Both the position numbers and the translations under genes were made by a program. From an uncultured bacterium (GTDB lineage: Bacteria > Desulfobacterota > Desulfobaccia > Desulfobaccales > 0-14-0-80-60-11), in NCBI GenBank assembly GCA_937943575.1, contig CALEAV010000048.1, positions 1-58,073 of the forward strand: 58,073 nt of DNA, given 5' to 3'. Of this stretch, positions 3,011-14,461 are shown in pieces. The notes beneath the pieces are model-generated. The model saw only the letters and a list, made by a program, of their open reading frames with translations. It was not told the DNA's origin and made no database searches. How positions within the stretch are numbered: the first letter of the stretch is position 1; every line of letters starts with the position of its first letter.

Positions 3011-3424
3011 TCAGGCGGCTTTGTGGCGCTTGAGATTTTCCCGGATAAACCTGACGATCTCGTTGGTGTCGGTGCCGGGGCGGAAGATCTCGGCGATGCC
3101 CGCCGCCTTCAGCCCGGGAATGTCCTCATCCGGGATGATGCCGCCCCCCAGCACCAGGATGTCCTCCACCCCCCTTTCCTTCAGGAGCTGCATCACCCGG
3201 GTGAAGAGGTAATTGTGGGCCCCGGAGAGACAACTCATGGCGATGACGTCGGCATCCTCCTGCAGAGCCGCCGCCACGATCTGCTCCGGCGTCTGCCTGA
3301 GCCCGGTATAGATCACCTCCATGCCTGCGTCCCGGAGGGCCGCACAGATGACCTTGATGCCCCGGTCATGCCCGTCCAGCCCCGGTTTGGCCGCCAACAC
3401 GCGGATCTTTCTCCCTTCCTGCAT
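3011..3424 (-). CDS. Methylmalonyl-CoA mutase, cobalamin-binding small subunit
   Basis: A 137-residue B12-binding subunit of methylmalonyl-CoA mutase, which interconverts succinyl-CoA and methylmalonyl-CoA. The base-off motif DGHDRG near the N-terminus supplies the His that ligates cobalt, and [12 protein letters not shown] is the typical nucleotide-tail pocket. The ATG at 3424 has AAGGAG upstream; the frame is open further upstream, but that part is low-complexity repeat sequence. The catalytic subunit is encoded just upstream on the same strand, separated by a 162-base gap that holds a GC-rich repeat. The split into two polypeptides matches archaeal and many deltaproteobacterial enzymes. 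A B12-binding protein of another mutase (e.g. ethylmalonyl-CoA) is less likely. Confidence 0.93.
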
Positions 3425-3450
3425 GGTCCTTCTCCTTCGATAGGCGTTGA

Positions 3451-3586
3451 GGTTGGGGGAGGGGGCTAAGAACCCCAGGCCCTTACCCCCTCCCCCAAGC
3501 CCCCACCCCCAAACCCATAAAGGGTTGGGCGGGGCCTGGGGGGGAGTGCAGGGAGCCACGCTCCCTGGTCCTCCCCCCAGCTCCCG

Positions 3587-5403: not shown

Positions 5404-6501
5404 TTAACCACCGCCCACAATACCCCAGAGCAGGCCGGCGGTCAAGGTGGCGGTGAGGAAGGCGGCCTGGTTGAGGGCCAGGGCGGGCTGGAGGATGTTC
5501 CCCTGGGGGTCTTCCCGGCGGCAGGCCAGCTGGGCCAGATGGGCCGCGTCGGGTGTGAGCCCCACCGCCGCTGCGGCCAGCAGGGGGTTGAGTGAGTAGC
5601 CGACCAGGGGATTGACCGCCTTGATGAGAATCAGGACGGCCAGCGGCGCCAGGGTGAGGGCCGCAAAGGCCAGCACCAGCACCTTCACCAGGGTGAGGGT
5701 CAGAACCTGGGCCAGGGGGCAGAGGCAGCCCACCGTCAGGCCCAGCAGGGCGGCCATGATCTCCGCCAGCCGGTTGGCCAGGGTGCGGGCCAGCCGGTCC
5801 GCCACCCCCGACTCCTTGATGAGCACCCCCACAAAGAACATGCCGGTGAGGAGAAAGGCCCGGGGGGCCAGCACCAGGGTGAGGATGAGGCCGGCGGCGG
5901 CAAAGAGGAGGGTCTCCCGGCGGCTCACCTTGCGGGTGGGGGCGGCCCGGCGCAGGCGCTCGGCCCGGCTGGTGAGGAGCCGGAGCAGATGTGGCTGCAC
6001 CAGGAGCTGGGCCCCCACCAGGGGAAAGACCGCCACCCCCAGGGGGCCGGCGAGCTCCGGGGCCAGCCTGGTGGCCAGAAAGAGGGCGGCCAGCCCCTCC
6101 CCGCCACCCACCAGGGCCGCTCCGGCGGCCTCACCCGGCAGCAGCCCGGCCCAGGCCCCCAGCCAGAACACCGGCAGAAACCCCAGGGGAGGCAGGAGCC
6201 CGAGAAGGAGTTTGCGGGGGTGGGCCAGAAGCGGCCCCAGACTGGTCCCTGCGCCCCAGCCCAGGAAGATGAGGGCGAAAAACAGACCGCTGTCCAGACC
6301 CTGGCGCAGCAGGGCCAGAAACGGGGCCCAGGCCGCCGCCAGCTCCCGGCCGGGGAGGTTGGCCACCAGGAGGCCCACGGCCGCGGGCAGGAGAAACACA
6401 GGCTGCAGGCGGAAGTGCAGGGCAATGGCGGCCAGCCCCGCCGCCAGCCCCAGGGCCAGGAGGAAATAGAGGAGGGAGGCCAGCTCCAGGTCCCAGGCCA
6501 T
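5404..6501 (-). CDS. Sodium-translocating decarboxylase beta subunit (OadB/MmdB/GcdB family)
   Basis: A 365-residue, very hydrophobic protein with roughly ten membrane segments, matching the beta subunit that couples decarboxylation of a carboxybiotin to Na+ export. Family hallmarks include GLDSGLFFALIFLGWGAGT, the PLVGAQLLVQPH stretch and VKVLVLAFAALTLAPLAVLILIK-like transmembrane runs. The start is set at the ATG at 6501, nine bases after the biotin carrier gene; the frame continues upstream only through other genes. Gamma and biotin-carrier genes lie immediately upstream. Substrate (oxaloacetate, methylmalonyl-CoA or glutaconyl-CoA) cannot be read here; the neighbouring mutase favours methylmalonyl-CoA. 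The sequence is rather divergent, so family is firmer than substrate. Confidence 0.8.
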   Translation of the reverse strand: MAWDLELASLLYFLLALGLAAGLAAIALHFRLQPVFLLPAAVGLLVANLPGRELAAAWAPFLALLRQGLDSGLFFALIFLGWGAGTSLGPLLAHPRKLLLGLLPPLGFLPVFWLGAWAGLLPGEAAGAALVGGGEGLAALFLATRLAPELAGPLGVAVFPLVGAQLLVQPHLLRLLTSRAERLRRAAPTRKVSRRETLLFAAAGLILTLVLAPRAFLLTGMFFVGVLIKESGVADRLARTLANRLAEIMAALLGLTVGCLCPLAQVLTLTLVKVLVLAFAALTLAPLAVLILIKAVNPLVGYSLNPLLAAAAVGLTPDAAHLAQLACRREDPQGNILQPALALNQAAFLTATLTAGLLWGIVGGG

Positions 6502-6992: not shown

Positions 6993-7408
6993 GTCCTCTT
7001 GCGCAGATCCCGGCGCTGCTGCATGGCCTGCCAGCGCCCGGACAGGGCCCAGACATTCCCCGGACCGCCCGTCGGGGGAGGAAACCCGGCGGGGGCTTCC
7101 GGGCCACCTTCCAGATACAGGGCCAGGGCCACGGCCACCGCGGCCGCCAGGGCCGGGTCCTCGGTGGGCACGGTCACCTTCGGCCGGGCGGGTTCCGCGG
7201 CGGGGGCCCGGGAGGGTTCGGATGCCGGCGGCGAGGCCGGGGGCACCGAGGCGGGGCGTTCCCGGGGCCCCACCCCCAGGGGCGCTCCTAAAGGTGCCGG
7301 CTCAAAATAGTCCAGCACCCGGGGTAACAGCAGGGTGACCCCGGCCAACAGGCCGCCCCACACCAGCAGCATCCCAAAGCCCAGGAGGGTCTGCCACAGG
7401 AGTTCCAC
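6989..7408 (-). CDS. Probable gamma subunit of a sodium-pump decarboxylase (OadG-like)
   Basis: A small protein of about 139 residues. One N-terminal membrane helix (LLWQTLLGFGMLLVWGGLL) is followed by a Pro/Ala/Glu-rich stretch and a short conserved tail (DPALAAAVAVALALYLEG, then WALSGRWQAMQQR). This architecture and the position directly before the biotin carrier and beta subunit identify it as the OadG-like gamma subunit that anchors the complex. I chose the GTG at 7408 because GGGAGGTGA lies 8 bases upstream; the open frame extends further but lacks a good start. GTG at 7420 is an alternative. Similarity rests on architecture and context more than on sequence. Confidence 0.7.
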   Translation of the reverse strand: MELLWQTLLGFGMLLVWGGLLAGVTLLLPRVLDYFEPAPLGAPLGVGPRERPASVPPASPPASEPSRAPAAEPARPKVTVPTEDPALAAAVAVALALYLEGGPEAPAGFPPPTGGPGNVWALSGRWQAMQQRRDLRKRT

Positions 7409-7517: not shown

Positions 7518-9347
7518 TTAGATCTCGCCGTCCTGCTCCATCTTGGCCAGCTCTTCGAAGCGGATGTCCAGCCCCAGGACGCCGACGATCTCGTCGTTGT
7601 CATCCCGGATGGGCACGCTCACGGTGATGCACAACGCCCCGGTGAAGCGGGAGGTGTAAAAGTCCGACACATACACCTTGCCCCGCTTGATGGGCTCGAT
7701 GAACCAGGGCCGGTTGGAGAGGTCCTCGTCCAGGGCCATGGTCTCGTATTTGGCCCGGTCCACAATGTGGGTGATGTTGCGGGTGATCTTGCGCCCCTCC
7801 AGGTTGGTGACATACATGAACTGGATGAAGGGGTTGTTGTCCAGGACCCGCTGCATCACCGGCTCCTGCTGGGCCGGGTCCATGGTGCGGATCTCCTCCC
7901 GCTGGGCCAGGTCCTCCGCCAGATGGGCCGCCAGGGTGCGGGCCTTGTCCTTGAGGCGGTCGAACTCGCTGACGAAATACTCCGGCAGGTAGCGGCGGGC
8001 CAGATTCTCCATCTCCTCGTTGCTGATGGAGGTGCAGCGCCCGGCTTCGTACCACTCCATGATGCGTTTGTAGATCTTGTTCACCCCGGGGTGGGCCTTG
8101 TCCACCTTCTGGTCGCCGGTGAGGCCCAGGCGGGCGTTGATCCAGTGGACGATGCCGGCCTTGCCGCTTTTGTCGGTGATGGTGATGGTCAAAGGCCGCT
8201 TCAGGATGCGGGCGGTGTCGAAGGGGTTGTAGATCTCTTCGTTCTTCAGGATGCCGTCCGCATGGATGCCGGCGCTGGTGGCGTTGAAGCTGGCCCCCAC
8301 AAAGGGGAAGTTGGGCGGGATGCGGTAGTGCAGCTCCCGCTCGAAGTAGTGGGCGATGTCGGTGATCACCGTGGTGTCGATGCCGTCGGTGGTGCCCCGC
8401 AAAGAGATGTATTCCACGACCAGGGCCTCGATGGGGGTGTTGCCGGTGCGCTCCCCGAAGCCCAGAAGGGTGCCGTTCACCGCCCCGCAGCCATAGAGCC
8501 AGGCGGTGACGCCGTTGACGAAGACCTTGTGGAAGTCATTGTGGCCGTGCCATTCGAGCAGGTGCCCCGGCACGCCGGCGTCCTCGATCATGGCCCGCAC
8601 CAGCCGCGGCACACTGCGGGGCAGGGCCGCGCCCGGGTAGGGCACCCCGTAGCCCATGGTATCGCACAGGCGGATCTTGACGTCGATGCCGCTCTCCTCC
8701 CGGAGCTTCATGAGCTCAATGGCCAGGGGCACGCAGAAGCCGTAGATGTCCGCCCGGGTGATGTCCTCGAAGTGGCAGCGGGGGGTGATCCCCAGCTCCA
8801 GGGCCGCCTTGACGATGGCCAGATATTCCTCCAGCGCCCGGCGGCGGTTCCAGCCGAGCTTCAGGAAGATGTGGTAGTCGGAGACCGAGGTGAGGATGCC
8901 GGTCTCCTTGAGCCCCATCTCCCTGACCAGCGGCAGGTCCGCCGGGTGGGCCCGGATCCAGCCGGTGATTTCCGGATAGCGGTAGCCCCGCTCCAGACAG
9001 CGGGCCACCGCCTCCTTGTCCTTGGCGCTGTAGAGAAAAAACTCACTCTGCCGGATGATGCCCTTGGGGCCTCCCAGCCGGTGCAAAAAGTCGAAGATCT
9101 CCACGATCTGGCGCACCGTGTAGGGCGGCCGGGCCTGCTGCCCGTCCCGGAAGGTGGTGTCGGTGATGAGCATCTGCTCCGGGGGCTGGGGCATGACGAA
9201 TTTATAGTCGAAATCGATGCGGGCGATCTCCGTGTAGGGAAAGATGTCCCGCATGAGGTTGGGCTCGTCCACGTCCACGAGGCGGTGCTTCCAAAAAGTG
9301 GTGTGCTCGTGGTCCAACAGCCGGCGTTCCGGATTCCAGCGTGCCAT
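7518..9347 (-). CDS. DRE-TIM metallolyase (homocitrate/isopropylmalate synthase family) with C-terminal Cache-like domain
   Basis: A 609-residue two-part protein. Residues 55-410 are a DRE-TIM barrel of the homocitrate/isopropylmalate/Re-citrate synthase family. It shows DTTFRDGQQA at 63-72, RLCDTMGYGVP near 226-236, the HGHND metal ligands at 267-271, and GERTGNTP at 298-305. Residues about 465-605 look like a single Cache/PDC sensor domain (FIQFMYVTNLEGR, then NRPWFIEPIKRGKVYVSDFYTS and ITVSVPIRDDNDEIVGVLGLDI). No signal peptide or membrane helix is visible, so the sensor part would be cytoplasmic. The ATG at 9347 has GAGGAG upstream. It sits where a decarboxylase alpha subunit would be expected but has the synthase-type DGQQ rather than DAHQS. 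Re-citrate synthase is one possible activity; the product is uncertain. Confidence 0.75.
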   Translation of the reverse strand: MARWNPERRLLDHEHTTFWKHRLVDVDEPNLMRDIFPYTEIARIDFDYKFVMPQPPEQMLITDTTFRDGQQARPPYTVRQIVEIFDFLHRLGGPKGIIRQSEFFLYSAKDKEAVARCLERGYRYPEITGWIRAHPADLPLVREMGLKETGILTSVSDYHIFLKLGWNRRRALEEYLAIVKAALELGITPRCHFEDITRADIYGFCVPLAIELMKLREESGIDVKIRLCDTMGYGVPYPGAALPRSVPRLVRAMIEDAGVPGHLLEWHGHNDFHKVFVNGVTAWLYGCGAVNGTLLGFGERTGNTPIEALVVEYISLRGTTDGIDTTVITDIAHYFERELHYRIPPNFPFVGASFNATSAGIHADGILKNEEIYNPFDTARILKRPLTITITDKSGKAGIVHWINARLGLTGDQKVDKAHPGVNKIYKRIMEWYEAGRCTSISNEEMENLARRYLPEYFVSEFDRLKDKARTLAAHLAEDLAQREEIRTMDPAQQEPVMQRVLDNNPFIQFMYVTNLEGRKITRNITHIVDRAKYETMALDEDLSNRPWFIEPIKRGKVYVSDFYTSRFTGALCITVSVPIRDDNDEIVGVLGLDIRFEELAKMEQDGEI

Positions 9348-9477
9348 ATGGCTCCTCGTCACGGTGGGGGGAAACTTGGTCCGGCAGGGCCTGATCCTGC
9401 CCATCCCGCCTTTTCCCCTCCTTATTCTTTCAGGGACAGCGAAGGGAGCGGTGGTATTTTTTGCCTTCCTCCCCGCA

Positions 9478-11259
<1,782 letters not shown>

Positions 11260-12649: not shown

Positions 12650-12678
12650 TTGACAGGGGCCGACGGGCATGGTAAGAA
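12650..12678 (+). promoter_or_regulatory. Sigma-70-type promoter for the cobalamin riboswitch transcript
   Basis: TTGACA (12650-12655), a 17-base spacer and TAAGAA (12673-12678) with a TGg extension just before the -10. Transcription would begin near 12685, right before the riboswitch. Confidence 0.65.
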
Positions 12679-12687
12679 TCGGGCGAC

Positions 12688-12865
12688 AATCAGGTAAGGA
12701 ACGCCGGACGGCATCCCGGAACCCGGTGCAAATCCGGGGCGGACCCGCCGCTGTGATCGGGGACGAGGGGGGCATGTCAGGGTCACTGCCGGGGCCCACC
12801 CCGGTGGGAAGGCCGCTCCCTGAGGAGGATCCGAGAGCCAGAAGACCTGCCGCCCGGGGTCCAGG
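12688..12865 (+). promoter_or_regulatory. Cobalamin riboswitch
   Basis: The B12-riboswitch core is readable in order: GGTGCAAATCCGGGGCGGAC then CCGCCGCTGTGA (12725-12756), GTCACTGCC (12782-12790), CCGGTGGGAAGGC (12801-12813), and CCGAGAGCCAGAAGACCTGCC (12831-12851) which holds the conserved B12-box end. The outer limits are approximate. It is followed by a strong terminator and then by the small peptide gene, so cobalamin probably shuts off transcription of the downstream pair. Class (adenosyl- versus hydroxo-/methylcobalamin) was not resolved. Confidence 0.93.
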
Positions 12866-12882
12866 TTCCCTTGAAGGCAAAG

Positions 12883-12915
12883 GGGGCACCTGACAGAGGT
12901 GCCCCTTTTTCTTTT
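12883..12915 (+). terminator. Intrinsic terminator of the riboswitch expression platform
   Basis: A perfect 9-bp stem GGGGCACCT/AGGTGCCCC with loop GACAG, followed by TTTTTCTTTT. It lies between the riboswitch and the peptide gene, so it fits ligand-controlled attenuation. Confidence 0.9.
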
Positions 12916-12963
12916 GCCGCCCCGGCCTTGCCGGGCCCAACCCCAGCTCGAGGAGGAAGGACC

Positions 12964-13065
12964 ATGCAGAAACCCCAAGTCATCCAGATCCGCTACACCT
13001 GCCGGCCGGACGGCAACCAGGTGGGGCTCTCCCATTACCTCATGGCCGAGGCGAAAAAGAAGTAA
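12964..13065 (+). CDS. Small peptide, likely CbpA-type radical SAM-modified precursor
   Basis: A 33-residue peptide with a single Cys at position 13, a middle of IQIRYTCRPDGNQVGLSHY and a Lys-rich end. A very strong ribosome site (GAGGAGGAAGG) sits three bases before the ATG. It is the first gene after the cobalamin riboswitch terminator and is followed after one base by a radical SAM/SPASM gene. This arrangement matches the computationally defined CbpA (modified peptide precursor)/CbpB pair found behind B12 riboswitches. The match is from memory of that family's layout and size; the modification and the mature product are unknown. There is no obvious double-Gly leader cleavage site. Confidence 0.8.
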   Translation: MQKPQVIQIRYTCRPDGNQVGLSHYLMAEAKKK

Positions 13066-13066
13066 G

Positions 13067-14461
13067 ATGCTGAACCTCCACTTCATGACGGCGGCCCCCG
13101 GCCCCCGGGCCAACGCGGGGGCCGCCCCCCACTTTCAGGTGCTGGCCACCGCCCACCCGGACTACGTGGCCCTCATCGAGCCGGACACCGCCTTCTGGGT
13201 GCTGGTGCGCAAAGAGGAGGCCCTGGACCTCCTCCTGGGCCCGGAGCTGACCCAGGCCTTCGCCGCCAGGGAAGCGGAGCTGGCCCGGGACCTGAACATG
13301 GTGCGCTTCGGGCTTCTGCCCTCGGCGGTCTATTTCAACCCCACGGAACGCTGCAACCTCAATTGCACCTACTGCTACCTCCCCCGGGACATGCGGCAGA
13401 AGGGCCGCCAGATGACCCCCGCCGAACTGCTCCGGGCCCTGGAGCTCCTGGAGGATTACTTCCGGAGCATCCTCCCGGAGGGGGCCCGCCCCCAGCTCGT
13501 CTTCCACGGCAGCGAGCCCCTGTTGGCCCGGGAGGCGGTCTTCGCCGGCATGGAGCGCTTCGCCGGGCGCTTCCGCTTCGGAGTGCAGACCAACGCCACC
13601 CTGCTGGACCGGGAAGCCCGGGAGTTTCTCCTCTCCCAGGGCGCCGGCATCGGCCTGTCTTTGGACGGCCCCACCGCCGCCATTGCCGACCGCACCCGCA
13701 AGACCTGGGGGGGCGAGGGGGTCTTCGCCCGGACCGTGCAGGCCCTGGAGGAGCTGGCCGACTACCCGGGCCTCAACCTCATCGTCACCGTCACCCGGGA
13801 AAATGTGGCGGCCCTCCCGGAGCTGGTGGAGTTCCTCCACGCCCGAGGGGTGCAAAACGCCCTCCTCAACCCCGTCAGGGGCACCCAGGCCGGCGGCCGG
13901 GAGCTCCTCCCGGAGCCGGACGCCTTGGCCCATTTCTTTTTCACCGCCCTGGCGCGGGCCGATGAGCTCCTGGAGCGCACCGGCCGCAAGCTGGTGGTGG
14001 GGAACTTCGCCAACCTGCTCCTGGGCTTTGTGGCCCCGGGGGCCAGGCGGCTGATGTGCGACATCTCCCCCTGTGGCGGCGGCCGCTGCTTCTTTGCGGT
14101 GGGCGCCGGCGGGGAGGTCACCCCCTGCAGCGAATTCCTGGGCCTGCCGGAATTCCACGGCGGCAACCTCTTTGACACCCCGCTGGCCGACATCCTGGCC
14201 GGCGAGCCCTTCCGCCTCGTCACCGGCCGCCGGGTGGAGGACATCCACCCCTGCCGGCGCTGCAGCGTGCGCCACGTCTGCGGCGCCCCCTGCCCGGCGG
14301 AAATCCACGCCCTGCAGGGCACCCTGCACGGCCCCGCAGCCCTGTGCGACTTCTACGCCGCCCAGGCCCGCTTCGCCCTGGGCGTCATCGCCGCCGGCCG
14401 CCTGGACCACTACCTCTGGGACGACTGGCAGGACCACCTGGAAGAAATCAAGGTCATGTGA
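13067..14461 (+). CDS. Radical SAM/SPASM peptide-modifying enzyme, CbpB-like
   Basis: A 464-residue radical SAM enzyme. The [4Fe-4S]-SAM motif CNLNCTYC has Cys at 96, 100 and 103. A barrel follows, with FHGSEP near 147-152, FGVQTNAT near 171-178 and GLSLDGP near 196-202. A Cys-rich C-terminal SPASM-type region for auxiliary clusters has Cys at about 331, 336, 341, 354, 396, 399, 405, 409 and 427. The ATG is one base after the stop of the 33-residue peptide gene, with only a weak ribosome site, so translation is probably coupled. Members of this class install thioether or carbon crosslinks on short ribosomal peptides. The upstream cobalamin riboswitch implies expression when B12 is scarce. The overall frame opens at 12899, but that region is leader sequence. 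Confidence 0.88.
   Translation: MLNLHFMTAAPGPRANAGAAPHFQVLATAHPDYVALIEPDTAFWVLVRKEEALDLLLGPELTQAFAAREAELARDLNMVRFGLLPSAVYFNPTERCNLNCTYCYLPRDMRQKGRQMTPAELLRALELLEDYFRSILPEGARPQLVFHGSEPLLAREAVFAGMERFAGRFRFGVQTNATLLDREAREFLLSQGAGIGLSLDGPTAAIADRTRKTWGGEGVFARTVQALEELADYPGLNLIVTVTRENVAALPELVEFLHARGVQNALLNPVRGTQAGGRELLPEPDALAHFFFTALARADELLERTGRKLVVGNFANLLLGFVAPGARRLMCDISPCGGGRCFFAVGAGGEVTPCSEFLGLPEFHGGNLFDTPLADILAGEPFRLVTGRRVEDIHPCRRCSVRHVCGAPCPAEIHALQGTLHGPAALCDFYAAQARFALGVIAAGRLDHYLWDDWQDHLEEIKVM

Follow-up and report, generated by a model that had tools for sequence, protein, structure and literature searches.

The window, a stretch of 58,073 nt from an uncultured member of the Desulfobaccales (contig CALEAV010000048.1 of assembly GCA_937943575.1), contains on its forward strand a compact locus in which a promoter-like site, a cobalamin riboswitch, a terminator, and a strong ribosome-binding site are followed by the genes cbpA and cbpB, with a single base between the cbpA stop and the cbpB start (Table 1). 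The original prediction had read a strong promoter, a cobalamin riboswitch, a terminator, a 33-codon gene with a strong ribosome site, and a radical SAM/SPASM gene from this DNA, and all five were recovered, including the radical SAM motif (C96xxxC100xxC103) and nine C-terminal Cys of the enzyme (residues 331, 336, 341, 354, 396, 399, 405, 409, and 427). Promoter-like sites occurred twice in the region, compared to 0.1 expected, and TTGACA is also located 5' of the riboswitch in the related loci L003, L004, L007, and L015. The window aptamer is flanked by P1-like arms reaching ~12702 and ~12860, and it is one of four cobalamin riboswitches in the 2.6 Mb source assembly. The single Cys highlighted in the window peptide is residue 13. 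The neighbouring genes, hisS upstream and prs downstream, are both on the opposite strand and, by their position, unrelated. Elsewhere in the window, a 704-codon frame (7518–9632, − strand) appeared by eye to have LeuA/HMG-CoA-lyase-like N-terminal and middle parts and a sensor-like (PAS/Cache-like) C-terminus.

Table 1. Features of the cbpAB locus, in coordinates of the window.
Feature	Position	Strand	Evidence
Sigma-70-type promoter-like site, TTGACA-18 nt-AAGAAT	12650–12679	+	10/12 matches
Cobalamin riboswitch aptamer (RF00174), model 47–167	12718–12846	+	71.3 bits, E 1.2e-15, gathering 31.5
Hairpin GTTCCCTT-(GAAGGCA)-AAGGGGGC, P13/antiterminator-like	12865–12887	+	3' arm overlaps terminator 5' arm
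Intrinsic terminator (riboswitch expression platform)	12879–12909	+	13-pair stem, then TCTTTT
Shine-Dalgarno AGGAGGAAGG	~12951–12960	+	Read from sequence
cbpA, predicted RiPP precursor of 33 residues, MQKPQVIQIRYTCRPDGNQVGLSHYLMAEAKKK	ATG 12964 to TAA 13065	+	TIGR04164, 28.2 bits
cbpB, predicted radical SAM/SPASM peptide maturase of 464 residues	ATG 13067 to TGA 14461	+	TIGR04163, 616.9 bits
CbpB N-terminal domain, residues 24–81, RRE-like topology	13136–13309	+	Structure model

The two products had been assigned to the computationally defined CbpA/CbpB pair, and comparison to the NCBIfam models upheld this in full for the enzyme, which scored far above the TIGR04163 cut-off (375 bits; residues 24–450). 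For the peptide the assignment stood as a match to TIGR04164 (E = 9.5e-7) but not as membership, since its score falls below the curated cut-off of 35 bits, which leaves it a homologue lying outside the model's trusted range. The CbpA of L003, L004, L015, L017, and L082 are likewise under this cut-off, and those of L022, L026, L031, L039, and L058 pass it. The subgroup that includes the window peptide has the pattern C-x7-GL with IRYTC, compared to C-x5-GTGL with AYRxxC in other CbpA, and the window pair has the same protein families, gene order, and spacing as the NCBIfam pair. Based on alignment, single copy, and position, the window peptide is a CbpA-like homologue, as distinct from a certified TIGR04164 member, and the cassette is, at the level of sequence, a new and divergent member of an already named family. 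A full-text search of a literature library for CbpA, CbpB, TIGR04163/4, or a cobalamin riboswitch combined with a radical SAM enzyme returned no functional paper; those matches to “CbpA” that were opened were DOI strings, and PMC12727194, a seeming CbpB paper, was set aside because its matching passages concerned a SPASM entry of no relation and a Pfam family called CBP_BcsQ.

Using the best 80 CbpB loci from a scan of 84,980 genomes, representing about a dozen phyla, it was possible to follow the peptide beyond the window. Carriers include Planctomycetota/Lentisphaerota genomes as well as a cultured organism, Desulfacinum infernum DSM 9756 (L054). The original prediction depended on the small frame being kept beside CbpB, and in every locus having upstream DNA (79/79) the motif R-x-x-C-(5 to 7)-G-L-S-H-[YF] was encoded by a frame upstream of CbpB, at a distance of 43–492 nt from the aligned start of the enzyme. 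All 75 distinct CbpA peptides share the R, C, G, L, and H, 74 have the S, and the last position is always Y or F. The window cbpA and its nearest relative (L003) differ with a dN/dS of 0.15, indicating purifying selection, and close cbpA pairs had values of 0.06–0.32 in seven of eight cases; the eighth pair, which has very few changes, gave 0.75. A profile search identified exactly one CbpA copy per carrier genome (35/35), which fits a dedicated cofactor-like part, unlike diversifying antimicrobials. The gap between cbpA and cbpB ranges from an overlap to >400 nt. Phyla are intermingled in the CbpB tree, with 28 label changes compared to a minimum of 11, which suggests transfer, although many bins are loosely named. 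The surroundings of the pair in the 80 loci contain no conserved gene family other than CbpB, and neither a protease nor an exporter is among the conserved neighbours, in agreement with the absence of both from the positions adjacent to the window pair in the original prediction.

A cobalamin riboswitch is located directly upstream of CbpA in 66 of the 74 loci with enough upstream DNA, a count obtained by merging by hand the lists over all 80 loci. The Rfam aptamer was directly upstream in 27/32 genomes mapped by coordinates (with L055 and L076, two of the five not placed by the mapping, recovered by locus search), and aptamers were upstream in 15/16 loci of one directly searched set and in most loci of the other such sets. 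Five loci with no riboswitch directly upstream (L031, L039, L058, L067, and L074) are sited among cobalamin-synthesis genes; of these, L031 and L058 have a riboswitch farther upstream, on a contig taken as the same one, and L039 has one within the locus. For L057, L075, and L080, the Rfam search identified no riboswitch above the gathering score upstream of CbpA. The CbpA riboswitch of L026 is the only one found in its genome. L051 contains four cobalamin riboswitches in 4.3 kb of a single contig (2995–3182 [−], 3367–3556, 5584–5771, and 7082–7233 [+]), one of which precedes cbpAB. Acido-Lenti-1 RNAs (RF01687) were also observed in L041 (2920–2964, −) and L072 (8619–8664 and 10312–10357, −).

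Between aptamer and CbpA, a terminator is present in 57/67 homologous leaders. The hairpin preceding it, which overlaps the 5' arm of the terminator, has a mean stem strength of 13.7 (57 loci) compared to 10.45 in shuffled sequences (0/50 shuffles reached 13.7), and relatives commonly have the loop GATGGYAAA, whereas a GGGTGCAA-type loop occurs in the platforms of other cobalamin riboswitches. The CbpA-type riboswitches share with other RF00174 members the aptamer core, the terminator, and a B12-box-type 3' region, but have aptamer scores of ~60–100 bits, compared to 100–130 bits for the majority of other aptamers in those genomes, which match model positions 1–189; the window aptamer and several other CbpA-type aptamers match positions 47–167 only. 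It is possible that these aptamers form a distinct riboswitch subclass. The other three riboswitches of the source genome precede CbiK (a cobaltochelatase), a TonB-dependent receptor, and a BtuC-type permease (genes named from sequence and not by family search), and by eye all three have the mutually exclusive hairpin/terminator layout, with a different loop. That the same topology precedes CbiK and BtuC supports repression by analogy only. By this likeness to the riboswitches that this genome has before its cobaltochelatase and corrinoid-transport genes, cbpAB would, with considerable confidence, be repressed by corrinoid, such that the peptide would be made at low B12.

The enzyme contains the Pfam domains Radical_SAM (PF04055) and SPASM (PF13186). 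Eight of its nine C-terminal Cys are invariant in 42 homologues, with C341 conserved in at least 90%, and eight fit the SPASM pattern for two auxiliary clusters, leaving C331 as an extra. The invariant C331 is positioned just before the SPASM Cys and beside a low-confidence loop of the structure model (332–339), and is possibly catalytic. An AlphaFold model of CbpB (mean pLDDT 89.6) had its closest folds in CteB (Z = 34.6), ChlB (34.2), and anSME (34.0), which are tied within one Z unit. CteB, the SCIFF thioether maturase (PDB 5WGG and 5WHY), is the best solved match by profile (E = 9.9e-34) and aligned over 379 residues, N-terminal part included, with an rmsd of 3.3 and 19% identity, but its substrate SCIFF is a different peptide family from CbpA, which has one conserved Cys. 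The anSME structures (4K36–4K39; 20% identity) have the same radical SAM and SPASM core, in an enzyme that acts on a Cys or Ser of a protein, and the same auxiliary Cys set, but the known sulfatase motif C-x-[AP]-x-R is absent from CbpA, with C-x-[AP]-x-G in part of the CbpA family only. The second-best NCBIfam match was the PapB family of ranthipeptide maturases (NF047865; 112 bits compared to a 340-bit cut-off). The PapB substrate has repeated Cys-x3-Asp motifs, which CbpA is without. A role of CbpB in anti-phage defence was rejected, the sole indication being a viperin-type radical SAM match, and a weak one.

In the model, residues 24–81 of CbpB fold as three strands and then helices, a topology resembling that of RiPP recognition elements (RREs), and align with the N-terminus of CteB within the full model; the top Foldseek matches of the isolated domain include the RRE TbiB1 (E = 0.3), with nothing significant. 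Based on the Cys pattern, the CteB-like model and sequence, and the RRE-like N-terminus, the activity of CbpB is expected to be peptide modification. One invariant CbpA Cys and a CteB-like predicted fold are compatible with the thioether (ranthipeptide/sactipeptide) class, and the most likely chemistry would be thioether formation at Cys 13 of CbpA, with other SPASM reactions possible. Overall, CbpA and CbpB are very probably a genuine RiPP pair.

The recurring neighbours of cbpAB are corrinoid genes. A corrin-specific gene was within ~6 kb in 13/80 loci (verified references), partly from related lineages, and CbiD was within ~6 kb in six loci, compared to the 0.18 expected if it were placed at random across a genome of 3.8 Mb (Poisson 4e-8, relatedness ignored). 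In L031, cbpAB is embedded in the order cobO, cbiA, cbiC, cbpAB, cbiX, cbiM, a ThiC-family gene, cbiQ, an ABC ATPase gene, and cbiD; the order in L039 is cbiM, cbiQ, an ABC ATPase gene, cbpAB, cbiX, and cbiD, and that in L058 is cobO, cbiA, cbiC, cbpAB, cbiK, a corrin methylase, and cbiD. The pairs in L067 and L074, which are relatives of these three loci, are near cobO, cbiA, and cbiC. In apparent salvagers, corrinoid genes accompany the pair in L026, where cobT follows cbpAB, in L071, where cbpAB is divergent from cobC, cobU, and cobS, and in L055, where cobU and cobQ are nearby. Two further frames were observed in these loci: a 398-residue membrane-like protein with no Pfam match between cbiK and the corrin methylase, adjoining cbpAB in L058 (8610–9803), and a gene resembling nucleoside hydrolases that immediately precedes the riboswitch of cbpAB in L055 (4148–5128), near its cobU and cobQ.

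Co-occurrence across genomes points in the same direction as synteny, and together these riboswitch-independent lines of evidence back the corrinoid link that had been inferred for the window. Of 197 Desulfobacterota genomes, 17 carry CbpB, and CbiD is present in all 17 carriers compared to 77/180 non-carriers (Fisher p = 1.5e-6), an association that weakens with phylogenetic correction (genus level, p = 2.3e-4; family level, p = 0.02). CbiM was not discriminating (155/197 genomes). Scavenging by auxotrophs only was rejected based on the presence of CbiD in all of the Desulfobacterota carriers. Amongst the 42 genomes behind the fetched loci, nine carriers are without CbiD, and the same nine are without CbiC; eight of these are from outside the Desulfobacterota or of unstated phylum, and CbiM is present in 9/9 and CobS in 8/9. 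This distribution suggests that salvagers carry the cassette too, with metagenome assembly gaps as a potential explanation for some of the absences. With both genes absent and CobS mostly kept, the role of the cassette appears not to be limited to cobalt insertion, which is weakened as a sole role, and occurrence in apparent salvagers favours a role common to making and salvaging corrinoids. A function within corrinoid or cobalt metabolism is likely. Taken as a whole, the observation made from the window is confirmed, and the interpretation originally placed on it is supported.

The explanation that best accounts for the locus as a whole, with an even chance of being correct, is a corrinoid-repressed, intracellular RiPP cassette serving corrinoid acquisition or assembly. 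The family identity, riboswitch, terminator, conservation, single copy, and corrinoid-gene association are directly supported; repression by the ligand, the proposed chemistry and the CbpA modification itself, intracellular retention, and corrinoid handling are inferred. When corrinoid is scarce, the riboswitch would let RNA polymerase pass the terminator and cbpA-cbpB would be made. CbpB, which has an RRE-like N-terminus and would hold a pair of auxiliary Fe-S clusters, is proposed to dock on the [IV][IV]x[YF]R stretch at the N-terminus of CbpA. The modification would fall on the core around invariant Cys 13, with a thioether bridge toward the GLSHY residues as its most likely form. The modified CbpA would stay in the cell, undiversified, and serve corrinoid metabolism in both producers and salvagers, where the likeliest task of mature CbpA would be to bind a corrinoid or its precursor, or to pass it on, as corrinoid is taken up and assembled. 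As the specific role of the cassette, such corrinoid handling falls slightly short of an even chance, and it has against it that CbpA contains no known corrinoid-binding motif. The full proposal, in which CbpA is a radical-modified, intracellular peptide of producers and salvagers that binds corrinoid or its precursor, and a component of B12 metabolism new to the author, is tentative and rather doubtful.

Alternatively, mature CbpA could be a cobalt chaperone or metallophore, binding Co(II) via Cys/thioether, His, and Tyr and feeding CbiX/CbiK or cobalt uptake. Consistent with this, CbiX or CbiK follows CbpB in L031, L039, and L058, CbiMQO is beside CbpB in L031 and L039, all 17 Desulfobacterota carriers have CbiD, all nine CbiD-less carriers have CbiM, and the aerobic pathway has a cobalt chaperone of its own in CobW (PMC7689651). 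This role is nonetheless unlikely: the nine carriers without CbiD and CbiC, eight of them with CobS, appear to salvage corrinoid and so to need no cobalt insertion (assembly gaps being possible), and CbiM is common regardless of the cassette (155/197) and may serve nickel. A different use of the peptide at low B12 is modelled by the replacement of metH by metE under a cobalamin-type riboswitch, whereby modified CbpA would be a B12-sparing cofactor that stands in for corrinoid in some reaction. Stand-alone riboswitch control in most loci and the single-copy, strongly conserved core of CbpA fit such a cofactor, as does the production of the peptide-derived redox cofactors PQQ and mycofactocin by SPASM enzymes, but the repeated siting of the cassette within corrin-synthesis or salvage clusters and the lack of a conserved client enzyme or peptidase adjoining the pair in 80 loci make it quite improbable.

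The remaining explanations detach the peptide from corrinoid metabolism or from the enzyme. The resemblance of CbpB to CteB- and PapB-type thioether maturases could reflect a secreted antimicrobial or signalling sactipeptide or ranthipeptide that merely uses a cobalamin riboswitch; this is very unlikely given that no exporter, protease, or immunity gene is conserved, the CbpA core is almost invariant over many phyla, each genome has one copy, and the riboswitch is nearly universal upstream of the cassette. CbpA is short and located between riboswitch and enzyme gene, as would be a regulatory leader ORF for CbpB that is not its substrate. Conservation of CbpA at the amino-acid level (dN/dS of 0.06–0.32 in 7/8 pairs, and 0.75 in one with few changes), the varying distance to CbpB (overlap to >400 nt), and a predicted CbpB fold that is that of peptide-modifying enzymes leave a leader ORF with a negligible probability.

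A corrinoid-repressed RiPP cassette is the reading favoured here, and the elements that are new are the riboswitch-independent link to corrinoids, the single copy with a nearly invariant core, and the presence in apparent salvagers as well as producers. CbpA/CbpB has been a named family without an assigned function. Its association with genes for corrin synthesis, nucleotide-loop assembly, and cobalt makes cbpAB a candidate missing component of the B12 metabolism of anaerobes, and loss of cbpAB should give a phenotype at low corrinoid. If this reading holds, a RiPP would be at work in a vitamin pathway, with a logic akin to that of PQQ and mycofactocin and tied to B12 by its regulation and neighbourhood.
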